Origin: Flavobacterium sp.
GTDB lineage: Bacteria > Bacteroidota > Bacteroidia > Flavobacteriales > Flavobacteriaceae
Assembly: GCA_029946065.1 (NCBI GenBank)
Contig: JAQSDU010000020.1
Location: 124,001-188,000 of the forward strand
Reading direction: 5' to 3'
Length of the DNA: 64,000 nt
The first letter of the stretch is position 1. Every line of letters starts with the position of its first letter. Below are positions 7,210 to 48,461 of this stretch, piece by piece. The notes beneath the pieces were generated by a model. That model made no database searches. It was not told the DNA's origin and saw only the letters and a list, made by a program, of their open reading frames with translations. Both the position numbers and the translations under genes were made by a program.

Positions 7210-7599
7210 ATGGCAAGTATATTTACTAAAATAATTAGCGGCGAAATCCCTTCTTATAAAATTACGGAAGATGAGCATTTCATTGCTATTCTCGACGTAA
7301 ATCCGAATACAAAAGGTCATACGCTTTGCATTCCAAAACAGGAAATCAATAAGATTTTCGATTTGGATGATACGACCTATTTGGGGCTGATGCAATTCTC
7401 AAAAAGAGTCGCGAAAGCACTTGAGAAAACAATAGCGTGCAAAAGAATCGGAGTGGCTGTTGTCGGACTAGAAGTGCCTCATGTGCATGTTCATTTGATT
7501 CCGCTTCAAGACATGGACGATATGCGTTTTCAGCGCAAAGCTAGCTTTAGCAAAGAAGAATTTGAATCGCTGATGTATGCGATTCAGGCGAATTTGTAA
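7210..7599 (+). CDS. HIT family nucleotide hydrolase/transferase
   Basis: The 129-residue protein starts at the ATG at 7210 (MASIFTKIISGEIP); the upstream extension in the track is untypical intergenic sequence. The histidine triad 'HVHVHL' (His91, 93, 95) is near the C-terminus, with 'DVNPNTKGHTLCIPK' as the other family block. Members are HinT-like and hydrolyse nucleoside phosphoramidates or dinucleotides in the cytoplasm; the exact substrate cannot be told. It probably shares the greA transcript. Confidence 0.93.
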   Translation: MASIFTKIISGEIPSYKITEDEHFIAILDVNPNTKGHTLCIPKQEINKIFDLDDTTYLGLMQFSKRVAKALEKTIACKRIGVAVVGLEVPHVHVHLIPLQDMDDMRFQRKASFSKEEFESLMYAIQANL

Positions 7600-7698
7600 A
7601 AGAACTATAACAAGAATTTACTTCGTCAGTTCGCCCTTTTGGGGCTCGGGTCACGAATTAACACGAATTTAATTTGTGAAAATTTGTGTTTAACATTT

Positions 7699-8841
7699 CT
7701 ATTCCGGTTTTCGGAAACTGACTTGCATTGTAGTTCCTTTACCAATTTCTGAATGCAAAACCCTAATTTTCCCTTTGTGATATTCTTCTACAATTCTTTT
7801 AGTAAGCGATAATCCCAATCCCCAACCGCGCTTTTTGGTCGTAAATCCAGGTTCAAAAACGCTCTTAAACTGATTTTTCGGAATACCTTTTCCAGTGTCA
7901 GAAATATAAACCATCACAAATTTATCTGCGTCAATAATGGCGACATCAAGATTGCCGCGGCCGCGCATGGCATCAATGGCGTTTTTGACTAAATTTTCGA
8001 CCGTCCAACTGTGCAATGCGGCATTGATCATTACGTTGACAGGATAATGTGGTGCGGTAAACGTAAATTCGACCTGTTTTGAAAACCTTGATTTTAAATA
8101 CTCGAAAGATTTTTCGGTTTCAGAAATTAAGTCGAGGCTTTCCAACACGGGCTCCGAGCCAATTTTCGAAAAACGGTCGGCAATCGTTTGTAAACGCACA
8201 ATATCTTTTTCTATTTCTTCAACGGTAGTTGCGTCAACATTGTCGGCTTTCATGATTTCCAGCCAGCCTAAAAGTGATGATAAAGGCGTGCCAATTTGGT
8301 GTGCAGTTTCTTTTGCCATTCCGGCCCAGAGTTTGTTTTGTGTTGCCATTTTTGTACTTCTGTAGAAATTATAAACGACAGTTCCAAAAAGAACGATAAT
8401 TAGCATTAGTGCAATCGGATAGTATTTTAATTTATTGAGAAGGTTCGAATTTCCGTAATACAAGTGTTGGAATTTCCCTGGTAAATATTCCCTTCGAATA
8501 GGATCATTCTCTTTCTTTAGTTGATTTATCAATATACGCAGTTCAGCGTCTGTAGCATATGTTTTTTCATCGATGTTAATCTTGCTGATAATCTTGCCTT
8601 TTTCGTCTGTAAGGATAATTGGAATCGTCTTGTTCCGGGTAATAATGGATAGCGGTAACTCAAAATCATTGGTGGTACTTAAGCTTTTTTGTGCGTCGGC
8701 CCAAACTTCCATTTTATCCCGCTCTTCGGTTTTGAATGTTTGGAACAATTCATACGTGTTCCAAAGTATCAGCAATACGATCACAAAAGAAGCGATGATA
8801 ATAACCCAGCGTGTAGAAGTCCTGCGTTCAGAAAACTGCAT
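7699..8841 (-). CDS. Membrane sensor histidine kinase
   Basis: The 380-residue protein has two membrane segments (about 12-30 and 142-158) enclosing a roughly 110-residue periplasmic domain. A dimerisation helix follows with phospho-acceptor His181 in 'ETAHQIGTPLSSLLGW', then an HATPase domain with N box 'NLVKNAIDAM', G1 'DTGKGIP' and G2 'GWGLGLSLTKRIV'. There is no HAMP or receiver domain and no response-regulator gene next to it, so it is an orphan kinase here. The signal is unknown. Confidence 0.9.
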   Translation of the reverse strand: MQFSERRTSTRWVIIIASFVIVLLILWNTYELFQTFKTEERDKMEVWADAQKSLSTTNDFELPLSIITRNKTIPIILTDEKGKIISKINIDEKTYATDAELRILINQLKKENDPIRREYLPGKFQHLYYGNSNLLNKLKYYPIALMLIIVLFGTVVYNFYRSTKMATQNKLWAGMAKETAHQIGTPLSSLLGWLEIMKADNVDATTVEEIEKDIVRLQTIADRFSKIGSEPVLESLDLISETEKSFEYLKSRFSKQVEFTFTAPHYPVNVMINAALHSWTVENLVKNAIDAMRGRGNLDVAIIDADKFVMVYISDTGKGIPKNQFKSVFEPGFTTKKRGWGLGLSLTKRIVEEYHKGKIRVLHSEIGKGTTMQVSFRKPE

Positions 8842-45939: not shown

Positions 45940-46614
45940 ATGAATATTTTAATCGTTGAAGATTACCGTGAACTTGCCGAAGAACTCATCAGTTATCTCG
46001 GTAACAACGGCTATATCTGTCGGCATGTTACCAGTTGCGAGGCGGCGCTTGAAGAACTTGAAGTTAACACTTTTGACATCATGCTACTCGATTTAGGTTT
46101 GCCCGACGGAAATGGCTTTGAAGTGCTAAAAACCGTCAGGAAAGCACGTTCCAAAATGGCGATTATCGTTATTACGGCGCGTGGCGAACTCGATGACCGC
46201 ATCAATGGCTTGCAGCTTGGCGCCGATGACTATCTTACCAAACCTTTTGCGTTAACGGAACTTGGTGCGCGGCTTTATGCCATCGTCAGGCGAATGCATG
46301 GTTATGCCGTCAATACAATTGAAGTGCATGGCTTCAAAATGCAGCTTGAGGATTTTAAGGTGACTTTTGAAGAAAATCCAATCAGTCTTACCAAAAAGGA
46401 ATTCCAGATTTTTCAATATCTTGTACTCAACAAAAACCGTGTAATTACGAGGCTTCAGTTAACAGAACATATTTGGGGTGATGTTTTGGAAATCAATTCA
46501 GATTCTAATTTCATCGATGTGCATGTGCGCAATCTTCGCAAAAAACTCGACAAATTTACAAAACTCGATTGGTTTGAAACGGTTCGGAATGTGGGCTATC
46601 GCATTAATATGTGA
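45940..46614 (+). CDS. OmpR/PhoB-family response regulator
   Basis: The 224-residue protein has a receiver domain with acidic pocket 'VED', phospho-acceptor Asp51 ('IMLLDLGLPDGNGF') and Lys in 'DYLTKPF', then a winged-helix DNA-binding domain ('SLTKKEFQIFQYLVLNKNRVITRLQL', 'SNFIDVHVRNLRKKL'). The ATG at 45940 is used; the track's 45937 is a TTG one codon earlier. The sensor kinase follows 78 bp downstream. A candidate target site is the tandem 11-bp repeat at 48055-48076. Confidence 0.94.
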   Translation: MNILIVEDYRELAEELISYLGNNGYICRHVTSCEAALEELEVNTFDIMLLDLGLPDGNGFEVLKTVRKARSKMAIIVITARGELDDRINGLQLGADDYLTKPFALTELGARLYAIVRRMHGYAVNTIEVHGFKMQLEDFKVTFEENPISLTKKEFQIFQYLVLNKNRVITRLQLTEHIWGDVLEINSDSNFIDVHVRNLRKKLDKFTKLDWFETVRNVGYRINM

Positions 46615-46692: not shown

Positions 46693-48012
46693 ATGAAAAT
46701 AAAGCACCAACTTGCCATCTTCAACGTCATCACCAGATTGTTACTCATTGTGGTGCTGGTGTTCTTGTTGCCGGTTGTGGTGGAGCAAGTTGTTTATAAA
46801 CATATTAATAAAACCTTATTAGAGAAAAAGCAAAAATTCATTGAACATCTAAACGATGCCGAAATCAACGAATTCATCAACAAAGGCGGCAAAGACGATA
46901 CGTATGCGAGCTTTTCGATTTTGCACGATGAGTTTATTTTGCTTTCCAAATTGGGCAACGGAAAATCGGCACAGCAATCGGTTTTTGTGAATGAGCCGCG
47001 CATCATCGAAGGTCAGGAAGACGATTACAGGATACTACAATATACTTTCGGCTACAAAGGTCAGATTTATCAGTTGGAAGTCGGCAGCAGCCTTGCTGAG
47101 ATCAAAGACTTGACTTTTATGATTCGGATTTTTACTTTGGTGACTTTACTCATTATCGTATTGCTGACTTTTTTGATGGATTCTGTTTACATAGAATACC
47201 TTTTTGCGCCGTTTTATAAAATTATCGATACTAAAATCAGACGCGTTAACGATCTGAGCTCATTTAATTTTACGACAATCAACTCGCATTCGGCAGAATT
47301 TCGAGAGTTAGACGAAGTGTTAAACGGAATGATGTCGCGCATTGATACGTTATTCCGCAAGGAAAAAGAATTCATTGCTAATGTTTCGCATGAATTGCTG
47401 TCGCCGATTTCACTGTTGAAAAACAAGTTCGAAAACATGCTGCAACAAGAAAACATTGACAATGAAACCATCGATAAAATTGCGGGGTCGCTTAAAACCT
47501 TGGATTTACTTCGAAGAATCATCCACAATTTGCTGCTGATTTCTAAAATCGATAACAACCAGTTTTCTGAAACAGAAAATATAGCGATAAAGGAACTGCT
47601 TCTGGAAATCGCCGAAGAAGCCGAAGACAGGCTTGAAGTGAAGGCAATTTTGTTTACGATGGCATTGCAATATGATTTTGTTTTTTCGGGCAACCGTACG
47701 CTGATTCGGATTTTGCTTTTCAATCTTTTGTCGAATGCCATTAAATACAACCATCAAAAAGGAACCATTCATATTTCAGACGAAAAAAATGCGACACATT
47801 ATTGCATTCTCATTGCAGATTCCGGAAAAGGAATGACTGCCGATGAAGTCGCGCAGATTTTCAATAGGTTTACGAGAATTGCATCGGATACCGACGGACA
47901 AGGACTCGGATTGGCGATTGTTGACAGCATTGCGCATTTTCATCATATTGCTATTGAAATCGTATCGGAGCGCGAAAAAGGCAGTGTTTTTCGGGTTTGT
48001 TTTCCTTTATAA
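46693..48012 (+). CDS. Two-component sensor histidine kinase
   Basis: The 439-residue protein has two membrane segments (about 10-30 and 137-158) around a periplasmic sensor of about 105 residues. Then come a linker, the phospho-acceptor box 'FIANVSHELLSPISLLKNK' and the HATPase with 'NLLSNAIKYN', 'DSGKGM', 'FNRF' and 'GQGLGLAIVDSIA'. The H box has LLSP where HELRTP is usual. It pairs with the response regulator upstream. The signal is unknown; the periplasmic domain resembles none I recognise. Confidence 0.93.
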   Translation: MKIKHQLAIFNVITRLLLIVVLVFLLPVVVEQVVYKHINKTLLEKKQKFIEHLNDAEINEFINKGGKDDTYASFSILHDEFILLSKLGNGKSAQQSVFVNEPRIIEGQEDDYRILQYTFGYKGQIYQLEVGSSLAEIKDLTFMIRIFTLVTLLIIVLLTFLMDSVYIEYLFAPFYKIIDTKIRRVNDLSSFNFTTINSHSAEFRELDEVLNGMMSRIDTLFRKEKEFIANVSHELLSPISLLKNKFENMLQQENIDNETIDKIAGSLKTLDLLRRIIHNLLLISKIDNNQFSETENIAIKELLLEIAEEAEDRLEVKAILFTMALQYDFVFSGNRTLIRILLFNLLSNAIKYNHQKGTIHISDEKNATHYCILIADSGKGMTADEVAQIFNRFTRIASDTDGQGLGLAIVDSIAHFHHIAIEIVSEREKGSVFRVCFPL

Positions 48013-48054: not shown

Positions 48055-48076
48055 TGCAATCTTCATGCAATCTTCA
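48055..48076 (+). promoter_or_regulatory. Tandem 11-bp direct repeat, candidate response-regulator site
   Basis: TGCAATCTTCA occurs twice without a gap (48055-48065 and 48066-48076), ending 11 bp before the -7 box at 48088. An 11-bp period is one helical turn and typical of OmpR/PhoB-family sites. It covers the place of the -33 element, fitting an activator. Confidence 0.6.
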
Positions 48077-48087
48077 TTTTCGCATTG

Positions 48088-48095
48088 TAGTTTTG
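48088..48095 (+). promoter_or_regulatory. Promoter -7 element of the small Lys/Ala-rich protein gene
   Basis: TAGTTTTG matches TAnnTTTG, 39 bp before the ATG at 48135. Confidence 0.6.
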
Positions 48096-48134
48096 ACCTA
48101 TAAAATAATTAATAACAAATAATTTATAAAGGTC

Positions 48135-48359
48135 ATGAAAAAAATTTTAATGTTAATCGCAGTAGTTTTAGGAACAACAGTAATGGTAAATGCTCAGGCA
48201 ACACCAGCAAAAGTGCAAGCTAAAGAAGTGAAATCTGAAAAACACAAAGCAGAGAAAAAAGCAAAAGCCGCAAAAGCAGAAGCTAAAACTATGGTAAAAG
48301 CAACTCCTGTAAAAGCAGAAACTACTGCTAAAACTGTAAAAGCTGCAGTAAAAAAATAA
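48135..48359 (+). CDS. Small exported Lys/Ala-rich protein
   Basis: The 74-residue protein has a signal peptide ('MLIAVVLGTTVMVNAQA') and a mature part of about 52 residues made almost only of Lys, Ala, Val, Thr and Glu ('EKHKAEKKAKAAKAEAKT', then 'VKATPVKAE'). The composition resembles histone H1-like tails, but the signal peptide sends it out of the cytoplasm. It lies directly after a two-component system and has its own promoter with a direct repeat, so it is a likely target of that system. It ends at a strong terminator. The function is unknown. Confidence 0.8.
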   Translation: MKKILMLIAVVLGTTVMVNAQATPAKVQAKEVKSEKHKAEKKAKAAKAEAKTMVKATPVKAETTAKTVKAAVKK

Positions 48360-48431
48360 TCCCCGTTATTTCTGATTTCGTTTCATAGATTAGGTTTTAA
48401 AATAGTGATTGAAATAAGAGGTTTATTGTTG

Positions 48432-48461
48432 AAAAGCCGTCAGTTCTCTGGCGGCTTTTTG
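48432..48461 (+). terminator. Rho-independent terminator after the small exported protein
   Basis: A 12-bp stem AAAAGCCGTCAG / CTGGCGGCTTTT (one G-T pair) with loop TTCT is followed by TTTTTG. Confidence 0.9.

Follow-up and report, generated by a model that had tools for sequence, protein, structure and literature searches.

A conserved tandem-hexamer box as the likely operator of an OmpR-family two-component system whose probable output is a small lysine-rich exported protein in Flavobacterium

In a stretch of 64 kb of Flavobacterium DNA (64,000 nucleotides, here called the window), a tandem repeat at 48055-48076 very likely holds the operator through which the response regulator encoded at 45940-46614 activates the gene of a small exported protein at 48135-48359. 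The site can be described as CTTCAT-N5-CTTCAT in a fixed position before a Bacteroidota sigma-A promoter element, and among Flavobacterium genomes it occurs together with this regulator. All features of the window described in the following lie on the forward (+) strand.

The two-component system and its small neighbour

The regulator at 45940-46614 (224 aa) matches the Pfam domains Response_reg (PF00072, 93 bits) and Trans_reg_C (PF00486, 80 bits), both above the cut-offs, and with a receiver and a winged-helix domain it belongs to the OmpR/PhoB family, to which the original prediction had also assigned it. Its phospho-acceptor motif is LLDLGLPD, the T and K are present, and the recognition helix reads SNFIDVHVRNLRKKL. 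The best NCBIfam model is that of PmrA (equivalog NF007928), but at 180.5 bits the protein stays below the cut-off of 330 and is therefore not to be filed as PmrA. The sensor histidine kinase at 46693-48012 (439 aa) has the HisKA and HATPase_c domains with H-, N- and G-boxes and a periplasmic domain of about 100 aa between two predicted transmembrane helices, for the fold of which a Foldseek search against the PDB (AlphaFold, 3 sequences, pLDDT 68) returned nothing at E<=0.001. Almost over its full length the kinase aligns with the model of PorY from the PorXY system of Porphyromonas gingivalis (NF052314), but the 257 bits are below the cut-off of 350 and another gene of the same genome scores higher (435.6 bits, G000:C14:713917-715167), which rules out that it is PorY itself. 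It is rather a PorY-related paralogue that is paired with a DNA-binding regulator of the OmpR family, and in this it differs from PorXY, as PorX is not known to have a DNA-binding domain of that kind.

Behind the kinase, the gene at 48135-48359 encodes a protein of 74 aa with a signal peptide, and it is indeed the small Lys/Ala-rich exported protein that it had been taken for. The mature part of about 50-54 aa has a pI of about 10 and a charge of about +10, is probably disordered, and matches no Pfam or NCBIfam family at cut-off. The Asr model NF033636 did not match the window protein at E<=1, and a relative (L001) reached 13.5 bits against a cut-off of 50. Further downstream follow a metallophosphoesterase gene and a thioredoxin-like gene, an order that is shared with Flavobacterium tagetis, of which strain GN10 (L001), from soil, carries the regulator and kinase pair as well. 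A terminator-like hairpin with a T-rich tail at 48430-48461 (14 pairs, 6 of them G-C) would end a single-gene transcript, which is supportive only, as shuffled sequences give about as many such hairpins. A literature search for small lysine-rich proteins controlled by two-component systems in Flavobacterium found none, and going by titles and abstracts, none of the papers listed for PmrA together with Flavobacterium dealt with this system.

Anatomy of the repeat and its promoter

The letters at 48055-48076, TGCAATCTTCATGCAATCTTCA, are two exact and gapless copies of TGCAATCTTCA, and 11 bp lie between their end at 48076 and the promoter element TAGTTTTG at 48088-48095; both the repeat and its distance to a TAnnTTTG box are thus as originally described. 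The window holds no other exact tandem of at least 11 bp with an 11-bp lag, but as 11 of 300 dinucleotide-preserving shuffles of the window also contain one (mean 0.037), the repeat by itself is only mildly surprising. The decisive evidence for a site is its conservation. What is conserved among the compared sites is TCTTCAT-N4-TCTTCAT, followed by a T-rich stretch and TAnnTTTG, or, expressed as hexamers, CTTCAT-N5-CTTCAT followed by 10 bp and TAnnTTTG. The two CTTCAT half-sites, at 48061-48066 and 48072-48077 in the window, are kept in all collected sites. The TGCAA portion of the 11-mer varies, which rules out the full 11-mer as the recognition unit; the identity of the two 11-mers is real, but as a unit only the TCTTCAT part holds, and the perfection of the repeat is in part incidental.

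When the spacing was left free (lags 8-14) in regulator-centred loci, the lag was 11 in 66 of 77 TCTTCAT-CTTCA pairs, and in 72 of 73 non-redundant sites of such loci the distance from the second CTTCA to the best TAnnTTTG (0-1 mismatch) was exactly 11 bp. Direct repeats one helical turn apart, placed upstream of the -10/-7 element and in constant phase to it, are what characterizes an OmpR/PhoB-family operator, and the site shows this layout. The intergenic columns that flank the box vary across species, and the box stays constant. Common descent of a compact locus could still account for part of the conservation, the variable flanks notwithstanding.

TAnnTTTG is the consensus of the Bacteroidota sigma-A promoter, placed at -12 to -5 and mapped in F. 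psychrophilum (PMC9723704), and TAGTTTTG conforms to it. With this placement, transcription is predicted to start at A48100, where 53 of 56 aligned sites have a purine, and the half-sites would then occupy -39 to -34 and -28 to -23. Jointly they would stand in for the -33 element, in the predicted position of a class II activator, and it can be agreed that the repeat occupies the -33 place. A hairpin formed by TGACCTATAAAA and TTATAAAGGTCA in the 5'UTR was also considered and dismissed, its folding being no better than that of shuffles (z +1.27).

Distribution of the box, the regulator and the target genes

Among 150 Flavobacterium genomes, the regulator (called at E<=1e-60) is found in 40, once per genome. 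The exact composite CTTCA-N6-CTTCA-N12-A-NN-TTTG occurs in 41, namely in all 40 regulator-positive genomes and in one of the 110 regulator-negative ones, where the match (G124) sits within a coding frame; the reversed pattern, searched as a control, matched 4 times across the 150 genomes. Fisher's test yields 9e-36 for this distribution, a value that overstates independence because the species are related. Order-wide, in 298 genomes, the regulator is confined to 13 genomes of Flavobacterium, all of which have the site, as compared to 8 of the 285 others, and those 8 lack the extended consensus. The idea that the box is the site of the adjacent regulator has support from both samples, and the other indirect tests agreed with it. 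Independently of this, it was observed that most of the sampled Flavobacterium genomes of at least 5 Mb contain the module and that it is rarer in small ones, which may reflect lineage or habitat.

The small proteins follow the same distribution. Nearly all sites are neighbours of the regulator genes. Most of them precede genes of exported proteins of 59-83 aa that past residue 20 consist overall of 30% Lys and 21% Ala and have a core motif KEVK ahead of a stretch rich in Lys and His, and at nearly every locus read the box stands before such a gene, behind the kinase. A profile made from 24 of these proteins found strong matches in 40 of 40 regulator-positive Flavobacterium genomes (best E<=1e-14 in each), and the sole convincing relative in the regulator-negative genomes (G138, E 3.5e-12) has no box upstream. 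Several species have 2-3 copies of the small Lys-rich gene (L160 and others), upstream of the regulator and downstream of the kinase. In the window's own genome of 3.8 Mb, a scan for such sites at promoters, as the original prediction had proposed, found the exact composite only once. With up to two mismatches the pattern occurs in 14 places, the others mostly within coding frames; the only frame-free one (L092, neither within nor directly ahead of a frame) has no clear second half-site, and a larger regulon in this genome was thus dismissed. The gene at 48135-48359 looks like the only target there, judged from such pattern matches, so that the system seems to be a nearly dedicated switch for one small cationic envelope protein, much as PhoB/RstA and asr in E. 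coli.

Relatives have some extra targets, which comprise a second copy of the small-protein gene, the regulator operon, PepSY-like proteins and, in a single case, MprF. G133 and G082 have the box ahead of the regulator gene itself, and no such box is found upstream of the regulator gene in the window. It also precedes the gene of a PepSY-like protein in G111 (just below the Pfam cut-off), that of a similar protein in G065, and two further exported proteins in G266. In G094 an exact box lies 67 bp ahead of a full-length mprF frame of 874 aa (L242, G094:C57). MprF is a lysylphosphatidylglycerol synthase that confers tolerance to cationic peptides. As a general target it was rejected, since the other 8 of the 9 mprF genes in regulator-positive genomes have no box.

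Outside of Flavobacterium, regulator, kinase, box and small protein are arranged in the same way in Pedobacter sp. MC2016-24 (L002). In two Sphingobacteriaceae genomes (G514 and G564) the regulators are 56-57% identical and the box is absent near them, but a genome-wide search for CTTCAT-N5-CTTCAT detected it at an unlinked locus, 70-126 bp before the gene of a related, Lys/Thr-rich exported protein of 111 aa with the motif KKEVK. The same hexamers also precede the gene of an RND-efflux periplasmic adaptor in G514, G564 and Pedobacter (L248, L249, L253), which suggests that efflux may be another target in Sphingobacteriaceae. The sites in Sphingobacteriaceae have a weaker -7 box and stand among some hits that look like chance matches in coding regions. 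As targets in Sphingobacteriaceae are unlinked and recurrent, the tie between box and regulator is likely functional and not a matter of proximity alone. Adjacent promoters of regulator relatives with 41-50% identity (Sphingobacteriales and neighbours) have no convincing CTTCAT box, and a more distant relative (L234, G780) has a Ser/Thr/Lys-rich small exported protein behind the kinase (7438-7716) without a CTTCAT box.

Mechanism, competing explanations and parallels

Architecture, conservation and co-occurrence can be read directly from the DNA, and they point to a mechanism of a known kind. The kinase would phosphorylate the regulator, which would then dimerize and bind with its two DNA-binding domains head-to-tail to CTTCAT-N5-CTTCAT at about -39 to -23. 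From there, as a class II activator like PhoB or PmrA, it may switch on transcription by the sigma-A RNA polymerase at TAGTTTTG, and the transcript would cover a single gene, that of the small and basic exported protein, which is probably disordered.

Competing explanations concern the identity of the binding factor, the direction of regulation and the reality of the site. Another transcription factor, such as one more OmpR-family regulator, might own the box and control both the two-component genes and the small-protein genes, the neighbouring regulator being merely co-regulated. This would agree with G133 and G082, where the box also stands ahead of the regulator gene, and there are many OmpR-family regulators per Flavobacterium genome, of which others with similar helices could use the same site. 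It is nevertheless improbable: over 150 genomes the box occurs if and only if the regulator is present, bar the one coding-frame match, the window's regulator gene lacks a box of its own, in G514 and G564 the box is ahead of unlinked genes, and the 11-bp tandem format itself fits an OmpR-family factor. Equally improbable is a repressor function, with the small protein being made while the system is off. The box overlaps the -33 place, and position alone cannot tell repression from class II activation, but a separate -33 TTG is not evident, a repressor would not demand such a constant phase, and the fixed 10-bp gap from half-site 2 to the -7 element resembles the spacing of PhoB-type activators, as at asr (PMC9026648). 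That the repeat arose by chance in AT-rich intergenic DNA and has no function, for which the occurrence of such tandems in the shuffles could be quoted, has next to no probability, since sequence, phase and position are kept in 40 of 40 regulator-bearing species and the reversed control remained so rare. Activation by the neighbouring regulator is thus the preferred explanation.

The layout of the repeats is like that of PhoB-type class II promoters, in which the operator, a pair of 11-bp repeats, stops about 10 bp short of the -10 element; the half-site sequence and the sigma-A element TAnnTTTG differ. The Asr protein of E. coli, likewise short, exported and basic, resembles the window protein in composition, with no sequence homology beyond that. 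Its gene is activated by the OmpR-family regulators PhoB and RstA at tandem sites (PMC4117788, PMC9026648). The PhoB box of asr extends from -39 to -22, replaces the -35 element and leaves a 9-bp spacer to the -10 element (PMC9026648), and is thus placed practically as the half-sites predicted here (-39 to -23), whereas the RstA box, TACA-N6-TACA, lies further upstream. By this comparison asr would be the closest functional parallel, and a homology to Asr is not supported.

As regards the operator, the closest format is that of PmrA (BasR), also a member of the OmpR/PhoB family with the head-to-tail binding that is predicted here. The PmrA box, CTTAAT-N5-CCTAAG (PMC3973317, PMC4660055), shares the tandem hexamers 5 bp apart, but the hexamers here are not of the CTTAAT type, having at base 4 a C in both half-sites, facing G, in place of A. 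The promoter is of the Bacteroidota TAnnTTTG type, unlike that of PmrA, and PmrA addresses lipid A modification genes instead of a small secreted protein. Aligned with BasR, N188, V192, H193, N196 and R198 of PmrA are kept as N190, V194, H195, N198 and R200, and the position of H195 is R197 in the window's regulator. Each of the 65 helices taken from Flavobacterium loci, with some genomes entering twice, reads SNFIDVHVRNLRKKL and thus has Arg at this position; the three Sphingobacteriaceae have Lys. In a docking model of PmrA, His195 contacts THY43 and His193 ADE44, and GUA35 and GUA34 are assigned to half-site 2 (PMC3973317), while in the crystal structure the emphasis is on Asn188 and Asn196 (PMC4660055). 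The two C of half-site 2 would be bases 16 and 17, paired numbers then sum to 51, and THY43 faces A8, which by our own derivation of the numbering in PMC3973317 should be the fourth base of CTTAAT. An Arg-guanine contact at base 4 would thus be natural, going by the docking model and not by the crystal structure.

From all this a wider picture can be drawn, which is tentative and somewhat less likely than not: this may be a single-output two-component system, in which the family of short, Lys-rich, disordered periplasmic proteins would be for Bacteroidota what Asr is for E. coli, acting in a response to envelope stress (acid, cationic peptides or metal), and in which a PmrA-type specificity was rewired by a His-to-Arg exchange, with a corresponding change of A to C in the two half-sites. 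The novelty lies in the sequence of the operator, in a predicted regulon of little more than one gene, and in a so far unnamed family of small cationic exported proteins that goes with a single two-component system. Few regulator-operator pairs are to our knowledge known in Flavobacterium, and here a sharply defined operator, CTTCAT-N5-CTTCAT-N10-TAnnTTTG, can be set beside its probable regulator, the small predicted regulon and a family of proteins that no model covers. The change of His195 to Arg, set against the change of A to C in the half-sites, offers a handle on how PmrA-type regulators shift their specificity, and once the signal is known, the promoter could serve as a compact inducible element in Flavobacterium.
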